This document shows positions 816-23,770 of a DNA stretch of 64,000 nucleotides, piece by piece; within the stretch, counting starts at the first letter, position 1, and each line of letters starts with the position of its first letter. This DNA comes from Veillonella atypica KON (GTDB lineage: Bacteria > Bacillota > Negativicutes > Veillonellales > Veillonellaceae). A model generated the notes under the pieces. That model had not been told where the DNA came from. It ran no database searches and saw nothing but the letters and a program-made list of their open reading frames with translations. Position numbers and translations under genes: made by a program. The DNA is taken from the NCBI RefSeq assembly GCF_002959915.1, contig NZ_PPDE01000006.1, forward strand, positions 31,030 to 95,029, given 5' to 3'.

Positions 816-828
816 ACGGCATCACCTC

Positions 829-1038
829 CTAATCCTTAATCGTGCATCCGTATTTTGCCTTTTGCATCTTATGACGAATCTTTCGAACGTTTGTCATGAT
901 ATATGACTGTACGACGGTATCATCATGATCCTTCGCTTTTTCGTACTTACTAAGTAATTTGTACAAGCTATAATCGGAACACATCCCATGACAGCCAGGT
1001 GTACGCCTGGTACAGTTCTTACACGGAACTCTCGCCAT
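829..1038 (-). CDS. Small Cys-rich phage protein
   Basis: A 69-residue protein of unknown function. It opens with a compact cysteine cluster (CKNC near residues 6-9, then CHGMC near 16-20), the arrangement of a small zinc-binding knuckle, followed by a basic, helical C-terminus. A Met five codons upstream (1053) is possible, but AAGGTGGT sits five bases before the ATG at 1038, so 1038 is the better start. The gene begins inside the 3' end of the VRR-NUC gene and stops 13 bases before the helicase ATG, so the three are probably translated from one message. Small proteins with this CxxC-x6-CxxxC layout are common next to helicase and nuclease genes in Firmicute phages; the function is not known to me. 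Confidence 0.75.
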   Translation of the reverse strand: MARVPCKNCTRRTPGCHGMCSDYSLYKLLSKYEKAKDHDDTVVQSYIMTNVRKIRHKMQKAKYGCTIKD

Positions 1039-1318
1039 GAATACCACCTTCATTCGTTAGGTAGTCCTTAACGGCTTCAGGGCCGTAAAGGATGTAAACG
1101 GTCTGCAGTAGGCTCAATAGTTTCTTGCACTGCACATCCTGTAGTTGGCTTAATCGACCTCGGGTCGTTTTAAGCTCTACGAATTGAACGGTACCGTCCG
1201 GCCATATCACAATCCGATCAGGCACTCCGACGTTGCCAGGCGATACGAACTTATAGGCCTTACCGCCCAACTCTCTAACACCCCGAACCAATTTCTGTTC
1301 GACTAGTTTTTCAAGCAT
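1019..1318 (-). CDS. VRR-NUC domain nuclease
   Basis: A 99-residue stand-alone VRR-NUC protein, a PD-(D/E)XK nuclease fold. The active-site pattern is visible: GVPDR with Asp34, then VELK with Glu48 and Lys50, and a downstream Gln58 in GRLSQLQ. Stand-alone VRR-NUC proteins are compact structure-specific nucleases in phages, usually adjacent to the SNF2 helicase and primase, as here, and probably act on branched replication or recombination intermediates. The reading frame starts just after the 315-bp repeat-rich gap at 1319-1633 and its 3' end overlaps the small Cys-rich gene. An AGGTGTGAT ribosome site lies just before the ATG. Family assignment is firm; the cellular substrate is inferred. 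Confidence 0.9.
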   Translation of the reverse strand: MLEKLVEQKLVRGVRELGGKAYKFVSPGNVGVPDRIVIWPDGTVQFVELKTTRGRLSQLQDVQCKKLLSLLQTVYILYGPEAVKDYLTNEGGIHGESSV

Positions 1319-1633
1319 CTATCACACCTCCATTTTGAGATTATCATTTACGCAAGGTAACAAAGTTACGATTTTTTTCTTTACATATAGATACATACCC
1401 TATTTAACCCCGTTTAACCCCTATAACGTACTTAAATATATATATTTCTACTACATATATATATAAATGTTACCTTTATATATAATAAGTACTATAAATA
1501 TAGATAAATACTAGGTTTATTAGGGTAACATTCTAGGTAACATTCGGGTAACATTCGGGTAACATAGTAACATTCTCAGGTAACATTCTTTTTGAGAATA
1601 TGGGGGTATTTTCAGGAATGTTACCTTCGAAAA
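1319..1633. repeat. AT-rich gap with clustered GGTAACATTC repeats (iteron- or operator-like)
   Basis: No gene is present in these 315 bases. The decamer GGTAACATTC occurs at 1524-1533, 1536-1545, 1547-1556 and 1579-1588. Near-copies are at 1558-1567 (GGTAACATAG) and 1566-1575 (AGTAACATTC), and an exact inverted copy, GAATGTTACC, is at 1616-1625. A 9/10 inverted copy lies at 1465-1474 and a GGTAAC...GTTAC pair at 1355-1369. The first copies start 12, 11 and 11 bases apart, about one helical turn. Between them is a very AT-rich stretch (about 1370-1510). The pattern fits either an iteron-type replication origin near the primase gene or an operator array for the VRR-NUC/helicase promoter. Confidence 0.75.
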
Positions 1634-4099: not shown

Positions 4100-4115
4100 A
4101 TGGCCAACGCCCTTT

Positions 4116-6083
4116 CTAATCCTTCATATAATAATCACTGGTGAATCCGGCGGCGGAGAGGTGTAACCCGTCAGCCCAGGGAATCGGAGCCCCAAATAAA
4201 GCGTTAACCTTATCAAGGGTTTTCTCCTTACCCTCGGAAGGGATTTCCATAACCGCTTCATCGTGGATGTGCATAGTAATCGGATACCCTGCTATCGTCA
4301 ATCGACGTAACGTAACTGCCAGGCAGTCTCGAGCTACGGCTTGGGTAATGTTTTCGACAAGTTTTCCGCCGTATGTACTATCATCCACCCAGGCGTTGTT
4401 GAATTGCGCCTTGAAATGGACGGCGTCCTTACCGAATTGGTTTTCTTTGATATACGCACCAGGGTAAAATAGCTTCCGCCCGCTTGGCAACTCTATCGTC
4501 ATGTAGCGATAGCCGTATATCGGATCAATTTCTAATCGAAATATAATACCGTGGTCAAGGCCCATAGGGTTGCCTGTGGTTACGGTATACACGGCAGCAT
4601 TTTCTACCTGGTACCATAAGTCCCGAATACGTGGTGACGCTTCACGCCATAATCTGACAATGTCCGGAAGTTCTTCTTCCGAAAGGCCCATATCAAGGGC
4701 GCCCATAGCCTTTAATGCGTTGACGCCTCCTTGATACCCAAGGGCCAATTCTGCGACTTTACCCTTTTGTCGAAGGTGTCCGTTTTCGCCGTGTTTCACG
4801 ACTGGAACGCCAAACATCGAGGATGCCGAGGCGCAGTAGATATCACCATCATGGGCGAATACTTGTTGGCGCCACTGCTCACAACTTAGCCAGGCGATAA
4901 CCCGTGCTTCAATGGCGGAGAAGTCAGCCACGCATAATGTCTTACCCTCTGGGGCGATAATAGCCGTACGGATTAATTGTGAGAGCGTATCGGCTACATC
5001 ACCATACAAGAGTTCAAGCCCTACACGATTACGATGTGCCACGAGGGAACGTGCGACGTCAAGCGTTTCGATGTAGTTTCTGGGTAGATTTTGGACCTGT
5101 ATCAGCCGACCGGCCCATCGTCCAGTACGATTGGCTCCGTAAAACTGTAACACGCCTCTGAGGCGATAATCTGAGCCCCAGGACTCTTCCATCTTGACGT
5201 ACTTCGATACAGAGGACTTGGCCAGTTTCTTACGTAACATAAGAACACGTTTGGCCACCTGGTTAATATCACTCTTGAGAGCGCTATCAACTGTATTCTT
5301 AGTTAAGTTAGGAAGGTTGGCCCCTGTGTTGGTGTTAATCCAATTGAGGAGTGCTTGCGTAGAGTTCGGATTGGCAAGCCTTGTGATTTCTTGGGCTTCC
5401 TTTGTGAGGATGTTCGTGTTTTCTTCATCGATGCAAAGGGCTCCGATAACCATTTCATGGTCGATAAGTACACCGCGATTATTAATTTCAATATCGATGT
5501 ACCAATCGTTCCAGGTCTCATCAGGTACAGGAAACGACGCGAGCCGTTTATAACATTCCATTTCAGTGACTACGTCTTGACGATTGTATTCGACATAGGT
5601 TCGCCACTTTTCAGGCTCGTGGTGTGGCAGGTTACGAGTTCGACCGCCGTTAGATTTAGTCGGGTTACAAGGAATACTAAAATATCGGATTAAAGCTTTA
5701 CCGGCTTTATCCTTTAATTTATCTTGAGGTAATCCTAAAGCCACGCCTAACTTAGCAAGGCCCATAGGATACCCTAAGTAGGCTCCGTGTATCATCGTAC
5801 AGTGCCATTGACGTAATGGAGTAGTATATCCGGCCTTGTTTAAACAGGTGATTTCAAACTGTGCATTGTAGGCATGTTTAATTACATCCGGATTTTTGAG
5901 GTCTGCAAGCACCTCATCCGGTATTGTTTCACCCTGTGCTAGATCCACAACTTCAACCTGGCCAAAGTCATACGCATATGCGAATAGGAGGATTTCGAAA
6001 TCCTCCGCTTCGACATATTTGTATACCCCCGCGCCAATGTCATTTGACGAAAACGTCTCTATATCAATGTTGAGATGGCGCAT
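4116..6083 (-). CDS. Phage family A DNA polymerase
   Basis: A 655-residue phage-type DNA polymerase I. The N-terminus has the 3'-5' exonuclease motif NIDIETFS. The polymerase domain shows motif A (DFSAIEARVIAWL), motif B (RQKGKVAELALGYQGG) and motif C (HDE in HIHDEAVMEIP), all intact. It would copy the prophage genome together with the adjacent primase-helicase. The frame extends to a GTG at 6092, but that GTG overlaps the AGGTGG ribosome site, so the ATG at 6083, five bases downstream of that site, is the likely start. It follows DUF2815 by 12 bases in one transcript. The order DUF2800, DUF2815, PolA, VapE, VRR-NUC, SNF2 is a recurrent replication block in temperate Firmicute phages. Confidence 0.95.
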   Translation of the reverse strand: MRHLNIDIETFSSNDIGAGVYKYVEAEDFEILLFAYAYDFGQVEVVDLAQGETIPDEVLADLKNPDVIKHAYNAQFEITCLNKAGYTTPLRQWHCTMIHGAYLGYPMGLAKLGVALGLPQDKLKDKAGKALIRYFSIPCNPTKSNGGRTRNLPHHEPEKWRTYVEYNRQDVVTEMECYKRLASFPVPDETWNDWYIDIEINNRGVLIDHEMVIGALCIDEENTNILTKEAQEITRLANPNSTQALLNWINTNTGANLPNLTKNTVDSALKSDINQVAKRVLMLRKKLAKSSVSKYVKMEESWGSDYRLRGVLQFYGANRTGRWAGRLIQVQNLPRNYIETLDVARSLVAHRNRVGLELLYGDVADTLSQLIRTAIIAPEGKTLCVADFSAIEARVIAWLSCEQWRQQVFAHDGDIYCASASSMFGVPVVKHGENGHLRQKGKVAELALGYQGGVNALKAMGALDMGLSEEELPDIVRLWREASPRIRDLWYQVENAAVYTVTTGNPMGLDHGIIFRLEIDPIYGYRYMTIELPSGRKLFYPGAYIKENQFGKDAVHFKAQFNNAWVDDSTYGGKLVENITQAVARDCLAVTLRRLTIAGYPITMHIHDEAVMEIPSEGKEKTLDKVNALFGAPIPWADGLHLSAAGFTSDYYMKD

Positions 6084-6095
6084 AATGGCCACCTA

Positions 6096-6722
6096 TTACA
6101 TTGGAAGGCCAGTAACAGGGTTGATAGCTGGAACGGCTTCAGCACCACCGAATACATTTGCTGCGCTACCTTGAGGAGCTCCGAATACGGATGCAGCGGA
6201 TGCAGGTTGGCCCCCGCCAAGAGGTTCGCCGTCACGTACCTTTTGTACAGGGCCTAAACCGGCGGAGATACCAGATGATTGATTGTTATAGAAATAGAAG
6301 TTAACCAATACATTGGCATACATGCCAGAATATACTTGGCCAGGTTCAGTAAGTGGCTGACCTTGAAGGTCGACTACTTCTGGCTTGAATTTCATGGATT
6401 GAGACGCGTTGAATACGTAATGACCTTTACATTCAGGGCCGTATTCTTTACCACCTGGCGTGTATCCGTCGCCATCGTGGAGTGGTGTTTTAGGTTGAGC
6501 CGGAACTTTGGCGCCATGTTTCACACGAGCATCGGCAATTGCTGCGTCGATGGCTTGCTGAATTGCTTGAACTTGTGCGGTATCTGATTTAGGTACAAGG
6601 ATCATCGCGCTATATTTGGCTTCGCTGAAATTGTTTGGGTTAGTGTATGGTTCAAGTAAATGAACGAAAGATAAACGTACGTTTTGTAAAAGGACTTCTG
6701 TTGGTTTGCATTGAAATGCCAT
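6096..6722 (-). CDS. DUF2815 family phage protein, probable ssDNA-binding
   Basis: A 208-residue DUF2815 protein. Members occur between DUF2800 and the phage polymerase and are thought to be OB-fold single-strand DNA-binding proteins; that role is inferred from position and fold predictions in the family, not shown by this sequence. The N-terminus (VRLSFVHLLEPYTNPNN) and the central YVFNASQSMKFKPEVVD block are typical. The C-terminal 50 residues are rich in Gly, Ala, Ser and Pro (ASAASVFGAPQGSAANVFGG), a flexible tail like those by which SSBs recruit partners. GGAGGTAAC eight bases before the ATG overlaps the end of the DUF2800 gene, so expression is coupled. Confidence 0.85.
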   Translation of the reverse strand: MAFQCKPTEVLLQNVRLSFVHLLEPYTNPNNFSEAKYSAMILVPKSDTAQVQAIQQAIDAAIADARVKHGAKVPAQPKTPLHDGDGYTPGGKEYGPECKGHYVFNASQSMKFKPEVVDLQGQPLTEPGQVYSGMYANVLVNFYFYNNQSSGISAGLGPVQKVRDGEPLGGGQPASAASVFGAPQGSAANVFGGAEAVPAINPVTGLPM

Positions 6723-6724
6723 AA

Positions 6725-7888
6725 TTAGTTACCTCCATTGGTATTAAATACTTGCGCCGCACTAGGTTGGTTAGTGATACGTGGGCGCTTATCCGTATCA
6801 ACTACAAGAGTAGGTTTGCCAGGGTTCTTAACGACCTGGTCGCCTACGAGTTCATTAAAATCTTTCTTACCGATGGCCTTTTCAATCTGAGCCAAGGTAA
6901 GAACCTTACGTTCATAGAGGATAGATTCATCTACCCCACCATTGATAAGGGTTTGAATAGCGGTATCTCCATCTTGGAACGCTCTGGAGCCTCTGCCCTC
7001 TACGGCTTTCCAACCTGGCACCTCCGCACCGGCTAAGGATTCAGATAAAGCGTATTCCTTGATATCTTTGTACCAGGATTCGATATCTTTGCCGTGCTCT
7101 AGGTATGTACCTAGTTCTTCAAGGCTAATCAGACGAGGGTCTTGGTTCGTGAATACATGCATCGCATCGAAATGCGCACATCGTGTTCTGCATTGAGCCT
7201 TTGCCCTACAGAACCCACACCAGGCACCAGCCTCAAATGTGTGGCCTTCCATTTCGTAGGCCTCTTTAGCTTTCGGTGCGACTACCTCCTCACCCCATTT
7301 ACGAAGCTCATCGGAGGACATTTCAAACTCTGAAATGTTGTTAACACGAGGCTGTACAATGGTCATCTTAATAGTATTGAACTTATATAAGAGACTGTAA
7401 TCGTGCATAGCCCCAAGCGCGTATAACATCATTTGTGGATTATGATCCGCATCAACTACAACACCTTTACCGTGTTTATAGTCAATGATATGGAGCGTAT
7501 CACCCGCTAAGATGATGCAGTCCGCAGTACCAAAGCCTTCAGGTACATACTGGCTAAAGTCAACACGCTTTTCGATGACTACCACAGGAGCGACCTTGTA
7601 ACTTAACATGATGGACTTGATGTATTCGAGATACACGTCTGTAGTTTCGTCCATCTCAGGTGCCCATAGCTCATTCTTTTTGATTTTGTTATACGCCCTG
7701 GTGTAGGTACCTTTGGCCATTACCGTAGTGTATTTTTTTAGTTTCAATTCACATAGTTCATGTGCGAGGGTTCCTTCCTTTGCATATTCTGATGTAGTAT
7801 CAGGGAAGGTCGCCTCTAATCGAGGCGCCCCCGTACAATGTAGCCACCTATGGGAACTTGATGCGCTTAGTAGCGCATGGCTAGCCAT
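6725..7888 (-). CDS. DUF2800 family nuclease, RecB/Cas4-like
   Basis: A 387-residue DUF2800 protein, related to the RecB/Cas4 branch of PD-(D/E)XK nucleases. Seen: GTADCIIL followed by LHIIDYKHGKG, which supplies the Asp, Asp and Lys of the active site, then a QMMLYALG helix. One cysteine near the N-terminus (Cys18 in HRWLHC) and a later CGFC-x4-CRTRC cluster (about residues 223-236) are arranged like the iron-sulfur staple of Cas4 and AddB. The protein probably resects phage DNA ends for recombination. The ATG overlaps the stop of the preceding gene by one base (TAATG), so the two are translationally coupled. Catalytic residues look complete; the iron-sulfur cluster is inferred. Confidence 0.88.
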   Translation of the reverse strand: MASHALLSASSSHRWLHCTGAPRLEATFPDTTSEYAKEGTLAHELCELKLKKYTTVMAKGTYTRAYNKIKKNELWAPEMDETTDVYLEYIKSIMLSYKVAPVVVIEKRVDFSQYVPEGFGTADCIILAGDTLHIIDYKHGKGVVVDADHNPQMMLYALGAMHDYSLLYKFNTIKMTIVQPRVNNISEFEMSSDELRKWGEEVVAPKAKEAYEMEGHTFEAGAWCGFCRAKAQCRTRCAHFDAMHVFTNQDPRLISLEELGTYLEHGKDIESWYKDIKEYALSESLAGAEVPGWKAVEGRGSRAFQDGDTAIQTLINGGVDESILYERKVLTLAQIEKAIGKKDFNELVGDQVVKNPGKPTLVVDTDKRPRITNQPSAAQVFNTNGGN

Positions 7889-8325
7889 TAGATTCGAGCC
7901 CCCATGTTGCGAAGGTCAACTACGAGATTAGGGAATTGGTCTTTTGGAAGTTCAGGAAGGCTTGCCACTTTGTATTTTTGCATCAAGCCAACGATTTCAT
8001 TCGTCCGGCCTGCATCCATTAAAGGTTGCAATGCCACCTGAATTTCTTCTAAGGTATATTCTTTAACCGGTGCTACAGGTACGGCCGGAGTAGGCGGTGC
8101 CTGTTGAGGTTCTGGAGTTGTTGGTACCGACACAGATGTCGGTACCACAGGTGCTACTGTAGTAGGTTGAGTGACTGGAGCCACCGGCGGAGCTTGGACT
8201 GCGGCGGGTACCACCGGAGCTGTGGGCGGTTCTTCCGTTGTAGGTATATTACTGTAGCTGAGGAACAATTTAAGTTCTTCACAAAGAGATACATAGTTTT
8301 TTGCTTCAAAAGTAATTCTGATCAT
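7888..8325 (-). CDS. Phage protein with proline-rich linker, DUF2800 partner
   Basis: A 145-residue protein in three parts: a short N-terminal strand/helix (MIRITFEAKNYVSLCEEL), a linker of about 65 residues made almost only of Pro, Val, Ala and Thr, and a C-terminal helical domain (about 90-145) with LMDAGRTNEIVGLMQKY and PELPKDQFPNLVVDLRNMG. Similar small proteins precede DUF2800 in many Firmicute prophages and are sometimes labelled as an rRNA-biogenesis protein without good reason; the function is unknown to me. An upstream ATG (8334) touches the AAAGG ribosome site directly, whereas the ATG at 8325 is nine bases away, so the second is preferred. The stop overlaps the DUF2800 start. Confidence 0.75.
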   Translation of the reverse strand: MIRITFEAKNYVSLCEELKLFLSYSNIPTTEEPPTAPVVPAAVQAPPVAPVTQPTTVAPVVPTSVSVPTTPEPQQAPPTPAVPVAPVKEYTLEEIQVALQPLMDAGRTNEIVGLMQKYKVASLPELPKDQFPNLVVDLRNMGARI

Positions 8326-8350
8326 AAGGAACATCCTTTCTAGTTAATAT

Positions 8351-8608
8351 CTAAATAATGCCGTTAACATGTAGCAGCATGAGAACGCAAATGCCTAAGA
8401 TGATGAATACGACTTGGCATGCTCTAGTCACCCAGGTATCAATCCTATTAAGTCTCTTCGTAACAATCTTTTCACGTTTAGATTGTTCCCTGAGGGAGCT
8501 TCTAACATCCCACGGACTAGGTGGAGCGGTTTTATGTACTTCCGGTGAAATCATCTGCTCTATTGCAGTATCTTTCGCTATCCGTTTTCTTCTATTTTTC
8601 CGAGCCAA
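8351..8608 (-). CDS. Small basic membrane protein of the phage early block
   Basis: About 85 residues, unrecognised. The N-terminal two thirds are charged and basic (RKNRRKRIAKD, then REQSKREKIVTKRLNR) and the last 20 or so residues form one hydrophobic segment (VVFIILGICVLMLLHV), so it is probably a tail-anchored membrane protein with its basic part in the cytoplasm. The frame has GTG and ATG codons at 8617 and 8614, but both lie within or two bases from the AGAGGTGAT ribosome site. The TTG at 8606-8608 has the right spacing and gives MARKNRRKR. The TTG start is an inference. Confidence 0.6.
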   Translation of the reverse strand: MARKNRRKRIAKDTAIEQMISPEVHKTAPPSPWDVRSSLREQSKREKIVTKRLNRIDTWVTRACQVVFIILGICVLMLLHVNGII

Positions 8609-8619
8609 TTGCATCACCT

Positions 8620-8871
8620 CTAAGATAGTTTTTGACTTGGCGATGTAAAGCCTGGTTTATCAATAAATTCCATAACCGTACAGGTTACTGCCTTTGCAAA
8701 CGCGTGCGGGTCTCGGCTATAGTCGTGAGTGATAGCTACTACCGCGCTAGCTAACATCGCGCCAAGTACCTTCTGGTCGGTTAATGTGGTTCTACATGCA
8801 CAACGGCAGGAGCTGTAGTCTTTGCTCAAATCCATATTGATTGATAGTGTGTGAGTTTTAGGTTTATTCAT
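8620..8871 (-). CDS. Small phage protein with Cys cluster
   Basis: An 83-residue protein of unknown function. The only notable feature is a tight cysteine run (SSCRCACRTT, near residues 21-30), with one more Cys in a C-terminal helix (KAVTCTVMEFI). The middle (LGAMLASAVVAITHDY) is mildly hydrophobic but too short and interrupted to call a membrane span. AGGAGG ends five bases before the ATG and overlaps the stop region of the adhesin gene, so it is cotranscribed with the adhesin. No homologous family is recognised. Confidence 0.65.
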   Translation of the reverse strand: MNKPKTHTLSINMDLSKDYSSCRCACRTTLTDQKVLGAMLASAVVAITHDYSRDPHAFAKAVTCTVMEFIDKPGFTSPSQKLS

Positions 8872-8880
8872 AATGGCCTC

Positions 8881-10293
8881 CTAAATACGACGTTGCGCAG
8901 CAACTTCTTGAGTTAACTCGTCAACCAATCGTTCTAACTTACTGATACGGCTTTGCGCATCTTTGGCTTCAGCGAGGTAATCAGACCCTTTGCCAGTCTT
9001 AAACGCAAGATTAATGGTGTACTGATTTTCAGCACCCAATGTCATACCCGCACCAATCAGTACACGTTCATTAGGGCGATAGAACGCTCCCAATGCTACT
9101 GCGTTAGCATTGCGGTAATGCCCATAGCTAATCGCAAAAGATGCTTTATCATTACGATTAAATTCAAGCGGATGCAAGCCACTTAATGCAGCACTAGATG
9201 CCCCCAACTTGTTAATGCGTTGGTTTGTAGTATTGATGCGGTTGTTGATTTCACCGGCCATGTTGTATTGGCGGTTTTCCAAATTCGTGATACGTGTTTC
9301 ATGATTAGCAGAGGTGCCTTGAAGTGTGCTGATATCAGCCGTATTAGTACGCACCTTTGCACCAATAGTATTAATCTCATCGTAAGCAGCGTATAACTGG
9401 GAGCCGTTGACAGCGTCCAAGCTGTCAGCCTCAACGCGCCCTGCACTCACGTTTTGGAGTTGTCGATTATATTGAGCCACACCACCTGCACCCGTGCGAG
9501 CTTTGGAGCCAAAGGATACGACGGCGCCTGGTTGTTCGCCTGCAAATACGTGGCGAGTGCCGTTGATTGTAATGGCATCAACACCTACCGCATCATCGGT
9601 CACCGAGTTGGTGCCAATAGCCACCGCGTTGGCGCGGTCAGCAATTGTGTTGTTCCCGAACGCTACTGCATCTGTGGCTAATGATTTGGCATGTGTGCCG
9701 AATACAAGAGCACCTTGGCCATTAGATTCGGAATTAGAACCAAACACCAACTGTTCCTTTTGGGAACCGATTTTATTGTTGTAGCCAACTACGGCGGACT
9801 GGCCACCAGCTACTGTGCCATTGTTAGCACCAACTGCGACGGAGTTTTCACCAGTCACGTTGTTGGAACGACCAAAGGCCACGGAGCTTTCGCCTGATAC
9901 GAACGCGCCATTCCCGATAGCAACGCTATCATAGGACGCCGTTCTAGCCTGGTTGCCGATAGCGATGGTGTACTCCACTAGACTTTCTGCATGCGAGCCA
10001 AACGCGAAGGAGTTACGGCCGGATGCTTTGGCATCATTACCGCCGGCAAAGCCGTTTTCTCCAGATACGGAATTATTAGTGCCAAAGGCGATGCCGTTTG
10101 GAGCAGATACTGTATTTTGAGTGCCCGCGATGAAGGCGGATGTAGCATTTGTAGTTGTTGTATTATTAGTGCCAATAATAAGGCTTGCATCACCATTAGC
10201 GGTGCCATTAGGGCCTAAGTTACTACCTTGTGCGAATACATTAACCGCTAGCGCGGAGATTGCGAGCGTGGATACAATTACTTTCTTGTTCAT
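8881..10293 (-). CDS. Prophage-borne trimeric autotransporter adhesin (YadA/Hia type)
   Basis: A 470-residue outer-membrane adhesin. A signal peptide is clear (MNKKVIVSTLAISALAVNVFA). Residues 25 to about 235 are YadA-head repeats, each a short turn ending in an SVAFG/NAVAIG-type motif (NGIAFGTNNSVSGENGFAGG, NSVAVGANNG, NAVAIGTNSV). A neck follows (RQLQNVSAGRVEADSLDAVNGSQLY, about 275-300), then a coiled-coil stalk (DISTLQGTSANHETRITNLE), then the YadA anchor (HPLEFNRNDKASFAISYGHYR to TINLAFKTG), which forms one third of a trimeric 12-strand barrel. Unusually, about 30 coiled-coil residues follow the barrel (AQSRISKLERLVDELTQEVA). It lies in the phage early operon, same strand, with tight spacing on both sides. 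It probably alters lysogen adhesion or surface identity. Confidence 0.9.
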   Translation of the reverse strand: MNKKVIVSTLAISALAVNVFAQGSNLGPNGTANGDASLIIGTNNTTTTNATSAFIAGTQNTVSAPNGIAFGTNNSVSGENGFAGGNDAKASGRNSFAFGSHAESLVEYTIAIGNQARTASYDSVAIGNGAFVSGESSVAFGRSNNVTGENSVAVGANNGTVAGGQSAVVGYNNKIGSQKEQLVFGSNSESNGQGALVFGTHAKSLATDAVAFGNNTIADRANAVAIGTNSVTDDAVGVDAITINGTRHVFAGEQPGAVVSFGSKARTGAGGVAQYNRQLQNVSAGRVEADSLDAVNGSQLYAAYDEINTIGAKVRTNTADISTLQGTSANHETRITNLENRQYNMAGEINNRINTTNQRINKLGASSAALSGLHPLEFNRNDKASFAISYGHYRNANAVALGAFYRPNERVLIGAGMTLGAENQYTINLAFKTGKGSDYLAEAKDAQSRISKLERLVDELTQEVAAQRRI

Positions 10294-10326
10294 AGTTGAA
10301 TTACCTCGTATAATATAAGTGTCAAA

Positions 10327-10929
10327 TTATTTTGATGTGGCCGTGTCAGTATTCCCAGTACTGATGCGGTCGTTTTCTTTTGGGCGTTTAAGAATATCGA
10401 AGTCAGAAGGACCGCCGATATCAACTTGTGCGTGTGCCCAGGTGTCATAGTCGAATCCAAATTTCTTAAGCTCGACTACGGCCTGCTTCCCTGAAGCGGA
10501 ACGATCAATAATGCTATTCAATGCATTCCGCGCTGACTTCAACTTACGAATCTCAATTTCGTAAGGTTTGGCCACTTCTAGGACTGCACGCCACTTTTGG
10601 CCCTTCTCGGAGTTAACATCAAGATTGTCATACCACCATTCGTGGAGTGGTTTGCACATGCGTTGGATGAAGTTATCCGCATCAGGTACAAGCTTATTAG
10701 CTAGTGTGCCATAGCCCAGTTCTTCCAAACGTTGGGCGCCTTTCCGTGCTTCACGTAAGCCATTAATGACTTTGTGGAACGCTTCAGCAGCTGCTACACG
10801 TCCGTCAGCCTTAAGGCTAATGTAGTGTGATTCGAGCGCTACGCTTTCCGCTTCTGTTTGTTCCAGGAGCCGAGCGTTGTACAGACTTCTAACAAAGGTC
10901 CGTACGTTGTTCTTTGTAGGGTTCTGCAT
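10327..10929 (-). CDS. Uncharacterised phage early protein
   Basis: A 200-residue soluble, charged, mostly helical protein with no signal peptide or membrane segment. Recognisable stretches are FHKVINGLREARKGAQRLEELGYG and a Trp-rich patch (LHEWWYDNLDV, near residue 110). I do not recognise the family. Nine codons upstream there is another Met (10956), but AGAAAGGAGG lies five bases before the ATG at 10929 and decides the start. It stands between the small regulatory genes and the adhesin on the same strand, 33 bases upstream of the adhesin. Position suggests an early regulatory or DNA-metabolism role; nothing in the sequence proves it. Confidence 0.7.
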   Translation of the reverse strand: MQNPTKNNVRTFVRSLYNARLLEQTEAESVALESHYISLKADGRVAAAEAFHKVINGLREARKGAQRLEELGYGTLANKLVPDADNFIQRMCKPLHEWWYDNLDVNSEKGQKWRAVLEVAKPYEIEIRKLKSARNALNSIIDRSASGKQAVVELKKFGFDYDTWAHAQVDIGGPSDFDILKRPKENDRISTGNTDTATSK

Positions 10930-11016
10930 AGGAACCTCCTTTCTGCTAAATTGCAAAATATACTACTTGGGCTCCGTACCAATTGGCCATCATTGCCCAT
11001 GTGAGGATTGCCTCAC

Positions 11017-11490
11017 TTAATACTGGCTAAAGTCAAATAATAATCCGATATCGATACTTAGCTTATCGGCCAAGATAACCGCCTTTCGAAAGGACATCGA
11101 CTTATTTATGCCCTTGAGATGGCTGTATAGGGTTGCATAGTGCATCCCGCACATCTCAGCGACGTCTTGAATGGACAATCTCTTATCAGCTAGCACCTTC
11201 CGGAACACTTCTGGTTTCAAGCGATACCCAAATCGATTGCCCCAGGTCTTTTGCTGAATCGAGCACTGGTCAAATAAGAAGTTGATTCGTTGACCAAGCC
11301 CTTTCGCTACTAACCGGGCAGTGCATATCCGCACAGGCAAGTGCTTGGATAATTTGACCAGGGTCATCGGATTTACGCCGATGACTTCAGCGAAACTGCA
11401 TAGCCCATATGGCGTGTTATCGTAGATCAGTTTCTTAAGGTCGAAACTGTTCTTGAGTCGCATCATCGGGATGATTGGTTTTCGCCTCAT
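11017..11490 (-). CDS. Phage regulator with two helix-turn-helix-like segments
   Basis: A 157-residue probable DNA-binding protein. The C-terminal half contains a Cro/CI-like helix-turn-helix: VFRKVLADKRLSIQDVAEMC followed by GMHYATLYSHLKG, then a LADKLSIDIGLLF tail. The N-terminal half has a second, weaker repeat of the same kind (CSFAEVIGVNPMTLVKLSKHLP), so the protein may be a tandem HTH. The frame runs 28 codons further upstream, but AAGGAGA sits just before the ATG at 11490, which also overlaps the previous stop in ATGA. It is likely an early-operon regulator; its targets are unknown. Confidence 0.7.
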   Translation of the reverse strand: MRRKPIIPMMRLKNSFDLKKLIYDNTPYGLCSFAEVIGVNPMTLVKLSKHLPVRICTARLVAKGLGQRINFLFDQCSIQQKTWGNRFGYRLKPEVFRKVLADKRLSIQDVAEMCGMHYATLYSHLKGINKSMSFRKAVILADKLSIDIGLLFDFSQY

Positions 11491-11672
11491 CGTTGTCTCC
11501 TTTGTAGTTTTTGGAGCCGTCTGATAGTTTGGCCCTGTTCGGCCACAATCCAAAGCGCCAATCCTAATGCACATTGCACAAAATACTGGGTAAAGCCTAT
11601 GCGGTCAATCTCAAGGCTACCAACGGAGCCCATGAGGATTAATCCGGCTACTAATTTAAGAAATGCATGCAT
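11487..11672 (-). CDS. Small phage membrane protein
   Basis: A 61-residue hydrophobic protein with two likely membrane segments (LKLVAGLILMGSVGSL, and YFVQCALGLALWIVAE) and a basic tail (RRLQKLQRRQR). The open frame extends 35 codons upstream, but AAGGAGG lies nine bases before the ATG at 11672, and the longer version would be a frame-shifted shadow of the neighbouring gene. It starts inside the 3' end of the HTH gene at 11656-11886, and its stop overlaps the next start. No family is recognised. Confidence 0.6.
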   Translation of the reverse strand: MHAFLKLVAGLILMGSVGSLEIDRIGFTQYFVQCALGLALWIVAEQGQTIRRLQKLQRRQR

Positions 11673-11886
11673 GATTAAATGCCTCCTTGATGTACTCTTC
11701 ACTTCTCCCTGTTCGAGCCAGGTATGTTTCAAATCCGAACCGGTCAATGACGAAGGTTCGTTTTTTGCCTTTGCCATAGCAGTAGGCGAAGGCTTTGTAA
11801 TGGTTGTTAGCGATGCCCTCTCTAACCGCTGTAAGGGTTAGGCCTAAAACGCTAGCCATCTGCTTTACTGTAATGGTGGGGTTCAT
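11656..11886 (-). CDS. Helix-turn-helix protein, excisionase-like
   Basis: A 76-residue protein of the small winged-helix/MerR-like group. ITVKQMASVLGLTLTAVREGIANN is a helix-turn-helix, followed by a beta wing (AFAYCYGKGKKRTFVIDR) and a short C-terminal helix (FETYLARTG). Proteins of this size are used by temperate phages as excisionases (directionality factors) or small repressors. The position on the lytic side of the switch, while the integrase is on the other strand, fits Xis but does not prove it. Its start overlaps the stop of the 55-aa gene in ATGA, and its 3' end overlaps the next gene. Confidence 0.7.
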   Translation of the reverse strand: MNPTITVKQMASVLGLTLTAVREGIANNHYKAFAYCYGKGKKRTFVIDRFGFETYLARTGRSEEYIKEAFNHACIS

Positions 11887-12050
11887 AATACCTTTAACAT
11901 GATTACAAAGTAGATAATCATAACGGTTAACGTTATAAAGGACAACAATCCAAGGATTCGGTTGAACCAGAGGTCAATCTTAGCGGTTCGATGAATCTGT
12001 TGAACGTGTAAATGTTCGATGATGATACGATTATCTTTTTCATTGTTCAT
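11883..12050 (-). CDS. 55-aa membrane peptide, phage early operon
   Basis: A short gene below the usual size cutoff. The ATG at 12048-12050 is preceded by AGGAGGT with six bases spacing. The protein has a charged N-terminus (MNNEKDNRIIIEHLHVQQIH) and one strong membrane segment (LGLLSFITLTVMIIYFVIM) ending close to the C-terminus. Its TGA overlaps the ATG of the following HTH gene (ATGA), so the two are translationally coupled, which supports a real gene. The topology suggests a cytoplasmic N-terminus with one membrane anchor. Function unknown. Confidence 0.65.
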   Translation of the reverse strand: MNNEKDNRIIIEHLHVQQIHRTAKIDLWFNRILGLLSFITLTVMIIYFVIMLKVL

Positions 12051-12083
12051 AGTTTTACCTCCTGTATTGGGTTAGAATCTTAA

Positions 12084-12107
12084 CATTCCGTAACGGTTTA
12101 ACCGTAA
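12084..12107. promoter_or_regulatory. CCGTAA/TTACGG operator-like dyad before the early operon
   Basis: Within the 61-bp gap between the Cro-like gene and the 55-aa gene, the sequence CCGTAACGGTTTAACCGTAA holds three copies of the CCGT(T/A)A half site in alternating orientation. The same half sites recur in the switch region at 12351-12440. It is probably bound by the repressor or Cro-like protein to control the rest of the early operon. Inference from repetition and position only. Confidence 0.5.
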
Positions 12108-12111
12108 TTCA

Positions 12112-12300
12112 CTATAAAAAAATAATGTCATCATATGCCACATTGAACACCTCTTGAATCTTCTTAATGTGTGGCACATCCGGAAATGAACGCTTACGCT
12201 CCCAGTTCCCCCAGGTGTCAACTGATACGCCAACATGCATTGCCGCTGTTACCTGGGACCAATTTCTCGATGCCCTCAACATCTTCAGCGTGTACTTCAT
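12112..12300 (-). CDS. Cro-like XRE-family regulator
   Basis: A 62-residue single-domain Cro/CI helix-turn-helix protein. LKMLRASRNWSQVTAAMHVGVS followed by VDTWGNWERKRSFPDV are the recognition helices of the XRE fold, and the last residues (KKIQEVFNVAYDDIIFL) close it. It is the first gene leftward from the switch and divergent from the CI-like gene, the classic Cro position. The ribosome site AAAGGAGG is eight bases before the ATG. It should compete with the repressor for the CCGTAA-type operators between them. Confidence 0.85.
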   Translation of the reverse strand: MKYTLKMLRASRNWSQVTAAMHVGVSVDTWGNWERKRSFPDVPHIKKIQEVFNVAYDDIIFL

Positions 12301-12350
12301 GGGCTACCTCCTTTCTGATGAGTAGTTCCTGTTTACAGTTATCATTGTAG

Positions 12351-12440
12351 TACGGATAAACCGTAATGTCCATAAATTAAACATAAATTATTGTAAAATT
12401 TCCGTAAATTATTGATTTTTTTACGGAACTATCGTAATAT
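12351..12440. promoter_or_regulatory. Lysogeny switch: divergent promoters and operators
   Basis: The 179-bp region between the Cro-like gene and the CI-like gene contains repeated TACGG/CCGTA elements: a 15-bp dyad TACGG-ATAAA-CCGTA at 12351-12365, TTCCGTAAA at 12400-12408 and its inverted copy TTTACGGAA at 12420-12428. TTGATT at about 12412-12417 and TAATATA near 12435 are spaced like a -35/-10 pair reading rightward into the repressor, so the second dyad would cover that promoter. The operators are inferred from symmetry and repetition; no footprint is implied. Confidence 0.6.
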
Positions 12441-12479
12441 ATAGGTATATTAATAATGTTAATTTGAGAGGATTTCAAC

Positions 12480-12860
12480 ATGAGTGATTTAGGTAATAAG
12501 GCTATTATGGCTGAAAATATCCAACGCTTAATGGATAGTCGAGGCATAGACCGTAATAAAATCTGTGCTGACTTGGGCTTTAAATACACGACCTTTACAG
12601 ATTGGGTTAAGGGTAACACATATCCTAGAATTGATAAAATCGAGATGATGGCGAATTATTTCGGGGTTCCTAAATCTCAATTAGTAGAGAAGTATGTTGA
12701 AGACGGATATTATTCTGATGCGGAAGCAGCCGAATTTGCGGAGTACCTACGTACACGCCCAGGTGCGCGCATGCTCTTTTCTGCCGCAAAAGATATTACT
12801 AAAGAGGAGATGGAAGAAACTGTCAAATACATAGAGTTCTTAAAATCTAAACATAAGTAA
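12480..12860 (+). CDS. CI-like XRE-family prophage repressor
   Basis: A 126-residue repressor. Residues 8-66 form an XRE helix-turn-helix (IQRLMDSRGIDRNKICADLG, YTTFTDWVKGNTYPRIDKIEMMANYFG). The remaining 60 residues are acidic and helical, without the S24 peptidase domain of lambda CI, so induction cannot be by RecA-driven self-cleavage. A metallopeptidase gene of ImmA type follows 24 bases downstream, which suggests induction by proteolysis instead, as in ICEBs1. It starts the rightward lysogeny transcript, divergent from the Cro-like gene. Confidence 0.85.
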   Translation: MSDLGNKAIMAENIQRLMDSRGIDRNKICADLGFKYTTFTDWVKGNTYPRIDKIEMMANYFGVPKSQLVEKYVEDGYYSDAEAAEFAEYLRTRPGARMLFSAAKDITKEEMEETVKYIEFLKSKHK

Positions 12861-12884
12861 TACACACAAGGGAGAGTGGTAGTA

Positions 12885-13151
12885 TTGGTTATTAACCTTA
12901 TCTATTGTGACTTACCAAATGCCAAAGCAGTTTCTGAGGAATCAGAGGATATAGATACTCATAATATCTATATTAATAAAAATCTCCCCCATGAACGAAT
13001 GAGGGAAGAAATAAAGCATGAACTGAGTCACATTATCCGTGATGACTTTTATGTGGATCATCACGTTAATTTAGTCGAGCGTATGGTTAGAATGTCCCAG
13101 ATTGATGATGGTGACATTGACGGAATCGACTTTTATCATCACATTATTTAA
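12885..13151 (+). CDS. Short ImmA/IrrE-type metallopeptidase
   Basis: About 88 residues, reduced compared with usual ImmA proteins (140-200 residues). The zinc motif HELSH is present (EIKHELSHIIRDD), and the preceding NIYINKNLPHERMREEI matches the ImmA/IrrE N-terminal part. ImmA proteases cleave XRE repressors; the adjacent CI-like protein is the obvious substrate. Start choice is uncertain: GTG at 12876 touches the GGGAGA ribosome site, whereas TTG at 12885 has normal spacing and yields MVINLIYCDLP, which looks like related proteins. The third zinc ligand is not obvious in so short a protein; Glu68 or Asp residues in the tail are candidates. Confidence 0.75.
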   Translation: MVINLIYCDLPNAKAVSEESEDIDTHNIYINKNLPHERMREEIKHELSHIIRDDFYVDHHVNLVERMVRMSQIDDGDIDGIDFYHHII

Positions 13152-13169
13152 CTTCGGGAGGTTATTATA

Positions 13170-13571
13170 ATGACTATTAAACGTATTTTGAGTGTAGTAA
13201 TTATTCTTATAGTCGCCATAGGTCTCACCCTATTCGCCCTATGGCCTAAACCGTCCATCGAGTTTAGAAATGAGTCCGTGCTTGGCCATACCGTAACCAG
13301 TGTAGTCCTTGAGGACTGGACACTCACATCCGCCCAGGGCGGAGAGAACTCCACTCTTACCTTCCCGAATGGGAAGTCCGTGCAGGCACACTGGCAACTC
13401 GTGCAGACCGTACCGCCTGCGCACCGATTCGATATGTTCCCTGAATCGTTCTTTTACCACACCGTATATGTGGCACCGGTTCAGCCAGGACTCGTTGATT
13501 ACATCAATGCTAATAAACCTACCGTAACCTACTACCTAAACGGGGAGGCTAAACAGATTCAATTTAAATAA
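13170..13571 (+). CDS. Membrane-anchored lysogeny protein of unknown function
   Basis: A 133-residue protein with one N-terminal membrane anchor (ILSVVIILIVAIGLTLFALWP, residues 6-26) without a lipobox, followed by about 105 residues predicted to lie outside the membrane and rich in beta-strand stretches (SVLGHTVTSVVLEDWTLTS, KPTVTYYLNGEAKQIQF). No family is recognised. It is cotranscribed with the repressor and peptidase, so it would be made in the lysogen. Genes in this position commonly change the host, for instance by excluding superinfecting phages; that role is a guess from position. Ribosome site GGGAGG, nine bases before the ATG. Confidence 0.7.
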   Translation: MTIKRILSVVIILIVAIGLTLFALWPKPSIEFRNESVLGHTVTSVVLEDWTLTSAQGGENSTLTFPNGKSVQAHWQLVQTVPPAHRFDMFPESFFYHTVYVAPVQPGLVDYINANKPTVTYYLNGEAKQIQFK

Positions 13572-13575
13572 AGTA

Positions 13576-13609
13576 AAGCCCCTATCCGATACTACTCAGA
13601 TAGGGGCTT
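13576..13609 (+). terminator. Stem-loop after the lysogeny operon
   Basis: An 11-bp perfect inverted repeat, AAGCCCCTATC...GATAGGGGCTT, with a 12-base loop, lies between the membrane-protein gene and the integrase. It has no T-run after it, so it may act as an attenuator or processing site rather than a full terminator; the integrase ribosome site follows at once. Confidence 0.55.
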
Positions 13610-13628
13610 AGCTATAGGAGGATATATT

Positions 13629-14723
13629 ATGGCCATGAAACGAGCCAACGGAACAGGATCCGTTTATAAAATGAAACATAAAAACCTTCGTAAGCCTTAC
13701 CGTGCTGTTATCACAGCCGGATGGACAGCGGAAGGAAAACCTATTAAGCGCTCACTAGGGACTTTTGCGAAGCAAGCTGACGCATACCAGGCCTTAGCAC
13801 AATTTGCGAGTAACCCAGATGCCTTTGCAGAACGTAAGATGACTACCTTTGGCCAAGTATTCGATTGGACGATTGACGAGTCAAAGCGTCAAGGGTTATC
13901 TAAAGGGCGTATCCAACATATTGAAATTGTGCGGGACCACTTTGCGCATCTCTTATCACAAGATGTTACTACCTTACGAGTTCCCCATGTTCAATCATTC
14001 TTTGATGACCCGACCAGGAAGCAATCCTATCTTCAATCAGTCAAAGCTATCTTGGTTCGTGTGATGAATGTCGGGATAAAGCATGAAGTGTTAACAAAGA
14101 ATTATATGCGCGATATTATAATCTCAAAAAATGCCCCTAGTACACGCATAGCGAAAGTTTTTACTCCGAGCCATATAATTACACTATGGGAGCATAAAAA
14201 CGAGCGTACGGCTCAAATATTGCTACTTTATATTTACACCGGACTCAGAATTTCCGAGCTATACGGTATTAAAATTGAGGATGTGCATCTAAAAGAACGA
14301 TACATGATTGGTGGATCTAAAACGGACGCAGGTAAACGTAGAATCATACCAATAGCGGAATGTATTTATCCAATTATATCTGCCTTCTACAGTGAAGCTC
14401 AATTCAAACGCTCCAATAGGTTATTTAAATCTCCTAGTAAGACCATATATCGTACTCATTTTACTAAAATATGCCAAGAACTCAACTTGGGCGAACATGT
14501 ACCCCACGATACGAGACACACGTTTATCACAATGTGCAGTAATGCAGAAATTCCGGAAATTATTGTTAAGCATATTGTTGGCCACTCCACTGCCAGCAAT
14601 ATCACACAAGACATTTACACGCATAAGACTACGAATCAATATGTAGAGGCGGTGAATAAATTACCGACCTACGATGACCTAATTGAGGGTGAGCCACGGG
14701 TGAGCTACCGTAACGAAATGTAA
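13629..14723 (+). CDS. int: Prophage tyrosine integrase
   Basis: A 364-residue tyrosine recombinase. The N-terminal basic AP2-like arm-binding domain (NGTGSVYKMKHKNLRKPYRAVI) is followed by a core-binding domain (about 70-165) and the catalytic domain. Active-site residues are all visible: Arg207 (TGLRISELYG), the lysine in GGSKTDAGKRR (about 231), His293 and Arg296 (PHDTRHTFI), His319 (VGHSTAS) and the nucleophile Tyr330 (QDIYTH). It would insert and, with a directionality factor, excise the prophage. It is the last phage gene before the core gene sbcC, so the attachment site should lie close by (14,724-14,835), but no direct repeat can be identified with only one prophage end in view. Confidence 0.95.
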   Translation: MAMKRANGTGSVYKMKHKNLRKPYRAVITAGWTAEGKPIKRSLGTFAKQADAYQALAQFASNPDAFAERKMTTFGQVFDWTIDESKRQGLSKGRIQHIEIVRDHFAHLLSQDVTTLRVPHVQSFFDDPTRKQSYLQSVKAILVRVMNVGIKHEVLTKNYMRDIIISKNAPSTRIAKVFTPSHIITLWEHKNERTAQILLLYIYTGLRISELYGIKIEDVHLKERYMIGGSKTDAGKRRIIPIAECIYPIISAFYSEAQFKRSNRLFKSPSKTIYRTHFTKICQELNLGEHVPHDTRHTFITMCSNAEIPEIIVKHIVGHSTASNITQDIYTHKTTNQYVEAVNKLPTYDDLIEGEPRVSYRNEM

Positions 14724-14749
14724 CGATTTTTGATAATTTTAAGCAAATG

Positions 14750-14783
14750 AAAACCCAGTAAACCGCGCGTTTACTGGGTTTTT
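14750..14783. terminator. Bidirectional terminator between integrase and sbcC
   Basis: A 14-bp perfect stem, AAAACCCAGTAAAC/GTTTACTGGGTTTT, with loop CGCGC, flanked by A-run and T-run, serves both converging genes. The prophage/chromosome junction is probably on one side of it. Confidence 0.85.
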
Positions 14784-14835
14784 AAAGTTATGCTAATATC
14801 CTCTTTTAATAGTATCACATTTTGTAAATTTATAG

Positions 14836-17800
14836 CTAGTTAATCACAAATTTTGCCGTACTACCTTCATCACCACGTGTGACCTCTAAATGGGCAGGTA
14901 TCCGCGTCTTTAACTCAGGTACATGGGAGATCATGCCGATAAGGCGCCCCGATGATTGTAGTTGTACCAATGTTTCCATAGCGAGCTCCAATGTATCAGG
15001 ATCAAGTGTACCAAACCCTTCATCAATGAACATCGTATCCATATGAATACCACCGGCATAACTTTGAATCACGTCGGCAAGACCTAAGGCAAGTGCCATA
15101 GAGGCCAAGAATGTTTCTCCCCCTGACAAGGTATTCGCAGGTCTAGATTGTCCTGTGAAAGCGTCCATTACGGCCAAATCAAGGCCTTGCTTACCACGGC
15201 CGCCACCGGTATAGTCTGAACGCTCCAAAGAGTAACGGCTACGGCTCATCTTTTGAAGACGTAAATTGGCTGCATAAACAACCTCATCTAAAATGGCCCC
15301 CAATACATAGCGCTCAAAGGTGACATTTTTAAAACCTTGTTCACCCCCATTAGCGAGATCATTCAATCGACTTAAGAAGGCTACCTTCTCTCGGGCCTCC
15401 CCCATAGCCGATTCAATTTCCTCTAGTGAAGCAAGTGTAGTTTCTATATGCTGTGTTTCTTTATCCCAAGCCGCTAAATGGCCCACCAATGTATCACGAC
15501 GTTCTACCGCTGCATCATATACTTCATCCGAAACGGTATCGCTAGGTTTAACCACAGTCTCCGTAGTCTTTAGTGCCGCATCATATACAGCTTGTGCTGT
15601 ACTAAAGGCCTCTTCCAAGTCATATAACTTAGATTTAAAATTCTCTAACGCATTAAAGTCACTCAACGCTTCTACAAAATCAATTTCACTTAACGATATA
15701 GATTGCAATGACTGTATATATTCCCCATGGAGCGAATCAAGATTCTTTTGTTCTTCTTTTACTTGAGAAGATAAGATTTCTAGTCGACCACGTTTAGCAC
15801 TTAGCTGCCCTCGAGCCTCCTCTAATTGTTTTGTAGTCACTGTTAACTGCGCATCATACTCTTTAATTTCTGATGCTAAGAATGTCACTTGCTTACGCCA
15901 CAACTCTATATCCGTAGTAGGCAACGACTCTGATAAGGAATCTATTTTTGCTTGTACAGAACTGATACTAATCTCTAGTTCATGCAATGCTTTAAGCAAT
16001 TCATTATGCGCAAGTTCTGATTTAGCCAACGTATCCTTAGCGGTGCTTAACCTACGCTCCGCATCAGAAATAGTCTTACCTAGCTGTTCAGATTCACCAC
16101 GTAACGTTTTGAATCGTTCCATTTGAGATAACAGAACTTGTTGAAGCGATGCAAAGTTTTCCTTAGAAAAACCATCTATAGAGGACTGAAGAATCGAAAC
16201 TTGTGCGTCCATATGCTTAGATAATTCATGCATCCGCCCCACTAACGCATCCCTTTGACCAACTTCATTCGCTTGTTGTTGTAACGCTTTATCACGAACA
16301 CCTCGAGCAGCTTCAACCTCATCCTTAGTAGGATATAATTCTGGCTTAGTTGCTAAATGAGGATGTTCTGTAGAGCCACATACTGGGCAAGGCTCATCTT
16401 CTTTCACGAAAGGAACCAGTTCATACGCGCGCCCTTCTTGCATTAAATGCTCTAGCCGCTCTAAATGTACCTTCGCCTCTTTCACTGTTTTATCAAGAGC
16501 TGCTAATGTCTCATCCTTAATGTCGATTTCTTTTTGAACCTGACTAATTTCTTCTACCAACTCAGAATATCTGTGCACATGATTAAGCTGTTCTTGAATA
16601 ACAGGAACCTGCTCCAGTAGTGTACTATTCTCTTGAAAGCGTTTACGTAAACCCTCAACATCTACTTCTATCTGTTTGATGAGCTGGCGTTGTATCTCTA
16701 GGTCAGCTTCACTCTTTTTACTATCCAATTGTTTTACATTACCACGTAGTGTAGATATCTTTTTTTTCAACAATCCTAACTCATCAAACTTTTCAGACTG
16801 TTGTTGGAGTTGAGCCAAAGTAGTCCTCTTAGATTGTATCGTCTCAGCTTGAGATTCTAACGCTTCATGAGCCTCTATACAATTAGTCTCATGTCGAGTA
16901 GCAGTGTCCACACTTTTTTCTGCATCGGACAGTGCCCGTTCTAATGTTGTTAAACTAGACTGTTTATCAATGTATTGTTGATACAATGCATGAACTGGAG
17001 ATAAGGAATTGAGGAATTGAACCTTTTCACTCAATTGTGTGCGTTCAGGTTCTTTAGCTTTCACCAAATCTAATCGAGATGTAGCCTGTGCTAGAGATTG
17101 TTGCGCTTGATTATATAGGGCCCACTCCTTACGCAAGGCATTAAATTGTTCTACCTCATTAACAGCCCTATCTCGTTCTACTACAAGTACATCACGATGT
17201 GGTACTCGATTAGATAATAGTTCACGTACATGTTCGACAGTTAGCACTGGAGTCTCTTCATCGTGAGGAATAGACTGTATCAACGCCGTTTGTTTCATCA
17301 AATTTTCTTCAATGCCAGCTTTTGCATCATCATAAGCTGATTTAAGAGCCTCTTGTAGTTTTCGATATAACTCTGTTCTAAAGAGCGTATGTAGTAATTC
17401 CTCCCGTTCATTTGTAGAGGCCACAAGGAGTTTTCTGAATTCCCCTTGTGGCAATAGAACCACTTGTAAAAATTGATCCTTCCGAAAACCTATGATTCGT
17501 TGAATCGTATCGCGAATGTCAGCCGCAGAGGTGGCGATAATCTTCCACTCACCAGCTTTCATTTCATAGACAGTGGCACTAGCGTTCTGTTCGCGCATAC
17601 CTGTACCGCGTTTTTTGGCTACCATCTGTTTTGGTAATCTTTCAACACGATATTGAGCATCTCCGATGGCAAAGGAAAAGTCTACACGCGTCATCCGCTC
17701 AGGTTCCGCAAAATCGCTGCGAATAGCATCAGTTTTACGCGCTTCTCCGCTAGGCTCACCATATAAGGCGTACACCATAGCATCTAAAATGGAGGTTTTT

Positions 17801-23299: not shown

Positions 23300-23770
23300 C
23301 TATTTTACCGGCTCACCCGTAAACGGGTCGGTATATTCTTTAAAGTTTAATGTATCTTGTGCTATATCTTCTTGTAATTGATTGCGAATATACTCTTTTA
23401 TCGCTCCTTCGTATCTTCCCACTGTATCCACATAATATCCTCTACACCAGAAATGTCTATTTCCATACTTATATTTTAAATTTGCGTGTTTATCGAATAT
23501 CATGAGGCTACTTTTGCTTTTTAAATATCCCATAAAACTTGATACACTTAAATGTGGTGGAATAGTTACTAACATATGAATATGATCCGGACAGCATTCT
23601 GCCTCTATAATCTCTACATTTTTTCTATTACATAAATCTCTTAAAATTTTACCTACATCAGCTTTTATCCGTCCATAAATTATTTGCCTTCTATACTTTG
23701 GTGCAAAAACAATATGATATTTACATCTCCATTTACTATGTGATAAGCTTTTTACGTCATTCATTGACAT
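23300..23770 (-). CDS. tnpA: IS200/IS605-type TnpA transposase
   Basis: A 156-residue Y1 HUH transposase. Seen: the HUH motif HIHMLV (in CCPDHIHMLVTIPP), the catalytic Tyr in AIKEYIRNQ and the family signature FMGYLKSKSSLMIFDKH. It nicks and joins single-stranded element ends. The frame extends 40 codons upstream through the left-end hairpin, but AGGAGGTTCA precedes the ATG at 23,770, which fits the usual TnpA N-terminus (SLSHSKWRCKYHIVFAPKYRR). The coding frame is complete, so the element may be active. Confidence 0.93.
   Translation of the reverse strand: MSMNDVKSLSHSKWRCKYHIVFAPKYRRQIIYGRIKADVGKILRDLCNRKNVEIIEAECCPDHIHMLVTIPPHLSVSSFMGYLKSKSSLMIFDKHANLKYKYGNRHFWCRGYYVDTVGRYEGAIKEYIRNQLQEDIAQDTLNFKEYTDPFTGEPVK

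Follow-up and report, generated by a model that had tools for sequence, protein, structure and literature searches.

A temperate phage of Veillonella carries, among its replication genes, a gene for a trimeric autotransporter adhesin (TAA), and the pattern extends to seven distinct phages that hold such a gene in their early region. Phage-encoded TAAs are already known; the early-operon arrangement in Veillonella phages is a real and recurrent variant of them. The best explanation of the whole, to which we give a probability of about 0.5, is that the adhesin, made early, would remodel the surface of the infected cell through adhesion or aggregation. The gene was found in the window, the whole 64,000-nucleotide stretch of Veillonella atypica KON that was analysed, and it is built as follows.

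8881 to 10293, minus strand: TAA gene, YadA-type, 470 aa, ATG start (Pfam, AlphaFold2, Foldseek, profile against PDB)
10228 to 10293, minus strand: signal peptide, residues ~1–22, MNKKVIVSTLAISALAVNVFAQ (by eye; model helix 7–16)
9394 to 10212, minus strand: head of beta-roll repeats, with the neck DAVNGSQL, identified by eye, at about residues 293–300 (Pfam YadA_head; model strands 38–249)
9181 to 9393, minus strand: coiled-coil stalk, residues 301–371 (AlphaFold2 model)
9001 to 9159, minus strand: four-strand membrane anchor, residues 379–431 (Pfam YadA_anchor 379–428; model strands 384–431; Foldseek)
8887 to 8988, minus strand: C-terminal helix past the anchor, residues 436–469 (AlphaFold2 model)

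An earlier note, made from the letters of the sequence, had described a complete YadA-type adhesin, and the description holds. Both YadA_head (PF05658, 65.7 bits) and YadA_anchor (PF03895, 34.5 bits against a cut-off of 22.7) score above their Pfam cut-offs, and YadA_stalk (PF05662) falls slightly under its own (26.9 against 28.4 bits). The signal peptide is a reading of the sequence by eye, with no predictor (basic start, hydrophobic stretch, VFA-Q). The AlphaFold2 model, built from five sequences, has low confidence (mean pLDDT 65) and predicts an N-terminal helix, short strands at 38–249, a coiled coil at 295–371, four strands at 384–431 and a helix at 436–469; despite the low pLDDT, the predicted order is that expected of a TAA. 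The top five Foldseek matches are anchors of Hia, YadA and AtaA, with E < 0.001 for the first one only. A profile made from five phage TAAs, searched against the PDB, found 27 distinct sequences with E of at most 0.001; seven of them belong to virions (sigma-1, tail needle, head completion), and the remainder are named as or taken for TAAs (UspA1, BpaC, YadA, Hia and others). The anchor is not C-terminal, since a coiled tail comes after it. Excerpts of PMC7549365 describe a coiled or SLH domain after the anchor in all Veillonella TAAs, and the chromosomal ones (Hag1, VtaA to VtaI) have, like the window protein, a head, a stalk, an anchor and a further domain on the C-terminal side of the anchor. 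No phase-variation repeats were found in 8500–10700.

The phage genes around the adhesin, and the end of the prophage that lies in the window, are these.

1019 to 1318, minus strand: endonuclease, phrog_93, VRR-NUC-like by eye (PHROG match)
1634 to 4099, minus strand: primase-helicase (family match)
4116 to 6092, minus strand: phage DNA polymerase (family match)
6096 to 6722, minus strand: Gp2.5-like single-strand binding (SSB) or annealing protein (family match)
6725 to 7888, minus strand: DUF2800 / PD-(D/E)XK exonuclease (family matches)
7888 to 8334, minus strand: early gene, phrog_18562 (PHROG match)
8351 to 8617, minus strand: early gene, 88 aa, single C-terminal hydrophobic segment (sequence)
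8620 to 8871, minus strand: early gene downstream of the TAA, 83 aa, without family match
10327 to 10929, minus strand: early gene upstream of the TAA, 200 aa, without family match
11017 to 11574, minus strand: HTH regulator (family matches)
12112 to 12300, minus strand: Cro-like protein, presumed first of the early genes (sequence and position)
12480 to 12860, plus strand: CI-like repressor (family matches)
12876 to 13151, plus strand: ImmA-like peptidase with an IrrE N-terminal-like domain (domain match)
13629 to 14723, plus strand: integrase (family matches)
14797 to 14813, unstranded: att core, 17 bp, with a second copy left of the window (G000:C8:5521)

A run of minus-strand genes extends from the Cro-like gene to the replication genes with the TAA inside it. 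The adhesin was said in the earlier note to sit between early genes, on their strand and tightly spaced, as cargo away from the phage ends; its neighbours are indeed co-oriented and the intergenic gaps are 33 bp upstream and 9 bp downstream, from which, together with the shared strand, we infer that the TAA belongs to the early operon. No sigma-70-like site lies on the minus strand between 11580 and 8649 in a consensus scan whose yield was at chance level (33 sites found, 31.5 expected). The note's interpretation is supported in part: the gene is cargo inside the early operon, and its tie to the replication programme, with altered adhesion or receptor display, is a proposal. The GC content of the TAA (0.486) matches the phage (early region, 0.462) rather than the host side of the window (0.392). 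Terminator-like sites number 23 in 1–14900, against 12.3 expected (sd 3.0). An imperfect palindrome of 17 pairs (10337–10373) overlaps the tail end of the 200-aa gene that precedes the TAA.

The window prophage is whole and bounded. The two copies of the 17-bp repeat enclose 40.3 kb, in which genes for terminase, portal, capsid-protease, tape measure, J-like fibre, endolysin and integrase are found. The neighbourhood of the right flank was taken from 13 other Veillonella genomes and eight loci were compared; the left and right host flanks, used as separate queries, adjoin in all eight, and the inner prophage ends have no match at these loci. At L183 and L185 the flanks are joined by a single copy of the 17 bp. 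An adhesin at the same place without a phage, which the earlier note had set against its own claim, was not seen at the empty sites examined. Beyond the prophage, an IS200-like transposase (PF01797) lies at 23300–23890.

When the gene was sought in phages of other Veillonella, the seven distinct phages fell into three types with three slots. The A type is the window phage, of which L008 is the IMG/VR copy. The D type with a TAA comprises L009 and L010, the latter matching G004 at all 8000 bases compared, and the E type with a TAA comprises G013 (which agrees with L060 at all 18000 bases compared), G009, L061 and L059, a 6.9-kb metagenome fragment. G000, G004, G009 and G013 are Veillonella, and the hosts of L009, L061 and L059 are presumed, on similarity, to be Veillonella. 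In the D-type slot the TAA lies between exonuclease and SSB, its start 3 bp past the exonuclease stop in both phages. In the E type it follows a dUTPase, downstream of the replisome organiser and SSB, and is the last early gene, between dUTPase and terminase, so that this slot could count as middle. Replication proteins of the D type are 34%–48% identical to those of the window phage, as against 63%–65% (tblastn) or 75% (alignment) for the TAA. The D-type repressor, Cro and ImmA are 78%–96% identical to their window counterparts (85%–87% for copies of the Cro-like protein), which indicates an immunity region common to both despite divergent replication genes. Between window 12112–13151 and L009 1591–2626, CI, Cro and ImmA are 87%–96% identical. 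The IMG genome 2882406111 holds two prophages, one of D type (L009) and one of E type (L061), each with an early TAA. Scans of GTDB contigs confirmed one relative by alignment, in V. tobetsuensis, and none by single protein; these scans depend on exact short patterns and miss many relatives.

The adhesin is dispensable for these phages. Two of the four D-type phages have it. Of the others, L063/L066 (one phage, the same over 12000 of 12000 bases) has in the slot between exonuclease and SSB a 102-aa acidic ORF (L063 6926–7234), and in L067 exonuclease and SSB are joined directly; this gap is an accessory-gene slot within the early operon. L069, the closest relative of A type (exonuclease 72% identical), also has no TAA. 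The TAA profile matched five of 94 loci, all of them copies of phages already counted, the loci spanning a few kilobases on each side. Marker searches, which other phage types may escape, indicated phage genes in nine of 14 Veillonella genomes; with G001 (a 3.4-kb contig) left out, eight were assessable, and four of these (G000, G004, G009, G013) have an early TAA. In the remaining four (G002, G003, G008, G012) no TAA was found within ~40 kb around the phage markers, nor around the phage terminases of G003, G008 and G012. The TAA is thus an accessory gene.

Substitution ratios argue that the phage gene is functional and that its head is under strong purifying selection. In three phage pairs dN/dS is 0.085, 0.058 and 0.083 for the whole gene and 0.050, 0.052 and 0.050 for the head; for L061 the first start of the TAA was used, which probably makes this sequence some residues longer than the real protein. 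The dS of the TAA (0.44–0.51) falls in the range of its neighbours in the two E-type pairs and, in the D-type pair, slightly above the three neighbours measured (0.32–0.44). For chromosomal Veillonella TAAs, two pairs at dS 0.76–0.78 give dN/dS of 0.18 and 0.26. The contrast with host TAAs is just suggestive, because six closer host pairs give 0.009–0.14. The phage head, by these ratios, looks fixed rather than variable.

A first tree of 28 anchor regions (seven phage rows and 21 others, leaving out L057, a cut copy of L010, and L034 and L035, which are too short) placed the phage TAAs together with support of 83/83. The genome G034, from a different family within the same order, has a chromosomal TAA (L209 15363–16670) that is 49% identical to the window TAA over query residues 189–465, and no phage genes were recognised by eye in the 34 kb around that gene. 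With this protein added, it joins the A- and D-type phage anchors at 100/98, the phage label needs two changes, and the idea of a single phage-only adhesin lineage is broken. On these sequences the G034 gene counts against a strict phage-only reading. Since the phage TAAs do not form one lineage once it is included, entry of TAAs into phages was probably repeated, or movement went both ways; the G034 gene, whose anchor groups with the A- and D-type phage TAAs, is a possible source or recipient. Over the whole protein, within the set compared, G034 is closest to a chromosomal Veillonella TAA (47%), and the TAAs look mosaic.

Beyond Veillonella, neck-motif scans of IMG/VR gave 12 stretches on 11 contigs and then 23 stretches on 22 contigs, including the first set. 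Six of the 22 contigs are Veillonella-type phages already counted, and two are Mu-like, with the TAA upstream of GemA and Mor.

L158, 3427 to 4593: Mu-like TAA, downstream of Gam and upstream of GemA/Mor
L171, 5805 to 6926: Mu-like TAA without its first 35 residues, with GemA- and Mor-like genes after it by eye

One of these contigs, 2871040012_1, starts with a 590-aa gene taken for a transposase, a DNA-transposition ATPase, Gam, ~1 kb unresolved and a 126-aa gene, and continues with the TAA, a 5′-nucleotidase, a DUF551 gene, GemA and Mor; those of the genes that have a family match are all co-oriented. The other, 2858059657_2, has two TAA stretches, 81% and 91% alike, of which L171 is the one read. 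By analogy with Mu, the Mu-like TAA would lie in an early region, and the Mu-like phages are an unrelated group with a similar arrangement. On a third contig, 2858059657_4, there is a piece of a TAA anchor, and the one neighbour scanned has no Pfam match. On L165 the TAA has, by eye, apparent tail genes and purA next to it; late positions therefore occur too. The remaining IMG/VR contigs are host-like or chance matches by eye. INPHARED gave no DNA-level match to window 1–14800; protein searches found one record and then four, some of them bacterial contigs filed as phage. The Acinetobacter and Salmonella records are judged bacterial by their annotation.

Among the nearest known systems is EibA of the E. 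coli prophage P-EibA (AF151091), which like the window protein is a TAA of a temperate phage; in our case this follows from the complete prophage, the att core and the empty site. EibA forms a separate unit at the late end of its phage, beyond J, lom and orf-401 and with annotated stem-loops on both sides, whereas the window TAA is inside the early operon, tightly flanked and without stem-loop borders. The TAAs listed for V. parvula SKV38 are chromosomal, some within an adhesin cluster and some outside it (PMC7549365, in part), and that of the window lies in a prophage. The Liberibacter prophage gene SC2_gp240 is annotated as a TAA and is numbered near the DNA polymerase A gene gp210 (excerpts of PMC4711790 and PMC11251058); the likeness is one of annotation alone. 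N4-like viruses have YadA-anchor genes (PMC10654107) and temperate gut phages have TAA genes (PMC10578192), in each case listed as auxiliary or virulence genes, and in the portions of these two articles available no discussion of an early-operon place for such genes was found. The word "phage" is absent from the main text of PMC7549365 and, by text search, from PMC12511318 and PMC5450701. Among the matches listed in a literature search outside whose range most subscription journals lie, no title or abstract opening described a TAA in a Veillonella phage. Co-aggregation of Veillonella needs VtaA and VtaE and auto-aggregation needs VtaA (PMC11633186 and PMC7549365, in part). Excerpts of PMC11633186 report vtaB and a prophage cluster as induced in the same co-culture; vtaB sits in the chromosomal adhesin cluster (a table of PMC7549365), so it is not a candidate phage TAA and its co-induction is no evidence for one.

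Under the favoured explanation, the accessory TAA gene would be transcribed from the phage early promoter along with the replication genes. Upon induction of the prophage, or its entry into a new cell, the adhesin would be exported, would trimerise in the outer membrane and would display its conserved beta-roll head on a short stalk, and the surface of the phage-replicating cell would become unlike that of its neighbours. The likeliest use would be to attach this cell to kin or plaque partners before or during commitment to lysis. Co-transcription, from which production on induction or infection would follow, is presumed, as are the timing and the surface display; export, trimer formation and display would follow from TAA biology. 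The ligand of the head is the weakest and least certain step. Adhesion to neighbours is favoured since Veillonella uses TAAs in that way (VtaA and VtaE; PMC11633186, in part). The TAAs found at late ends (L165, by eye, and EibA) count against a reading in terms of early expression.

Repression is rarely perfect, and lysogens may therefore also make the adhesin. It is possible, if on the unlikely side, that an uninduced lysogen makes enough of it to help plaque colonisation and that the early place is incidental. The immunoglobulin-binding EibA (AF151091) is a known prophage TAA, Veillonella adheres by TAAs (PMC7549365 and PMC11633186, in part), sister phages keep or lack the gene, and the source could be leak or a promoter missed by the consensus scan. 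Such lysogenic conversion fits less well with the late place of EibA between its stem-loops, unlike that of the window gene, and with the scant room for a promoter, least in the D type, unless one lies inside the preceding gene; all three Veillonella slots, moreover, are among early genes.

A conserved head would suit superinfection exclusion just as well as adhesion. Its conservation suggests a fixed ligand, and the head might cover or occupy a surface receptor and so bar other phages from the phage-replicating cell. Outer-membrane blockers made early do exist: Llp of T5, an early-made phage lipoprotein, blocks FhuA, and is likened here to the window TAA by description, both being phage proteins of the outer membrane. 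We consider such a role decidedly unlikely, as the sequence indicates no receptor and the D- and E-type TAA prophages coexist in genome 2882406111, where one did not permanently exclude the other. That a host gene was caught by chance in a tolerant slot and is useless to the phage is very improbable: the TAA is accessory, and a sister phage has another small gene in the D-type slot, but whole-gene dN/dS is 0.058–0.085 in the three pairs and the TAA recurs in several phage types. A virion part, for instance a tail fibre on the TAA fold, is hardly credible even though the Mu-like TAA is hit by two PHROG families of the "tail" category, one of them named adhesin, and coiled-coil virion proteins are among the PDB matches of the TAA profile, for the TAA has a signal peptide and a membrane anchor, is early rather than late, and belongs to a phage that already owns a J-like fibre.

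To return to the early surface remodelling that we favour, the sequences suggest that phages with TAAs in differing places change the surface of the cell they multiply in. A wider and rather doubtful form of this proposal is that unrelated temperate phage types repeatedly recruited TAAs into the early programme, and that the sticky replicating cell holds uninfected kin or plaque partners. Fresh hosts would then stand next to the burst. Phage cargo is usually taken as a benefit to the lysogen; here phages would also manage the surface of a cell about to be destroyed, and phage induction would be tied to aggregation in plaque, a setting in which Veillonella attaches to other species through TAAs.

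The D-type phages have no small membrane protein beside the TAA. In two E-type phages, G013 and G009, a small gene with one hydrophobic segment directly follows it, and such proteins are possible partners of the TAA. The E-type ones, at L051 9619–9828 and L048 11784–11996, have the segment near the C terminus, as does the protein encoded in the window at 8351–8617, two genes past the TAA.
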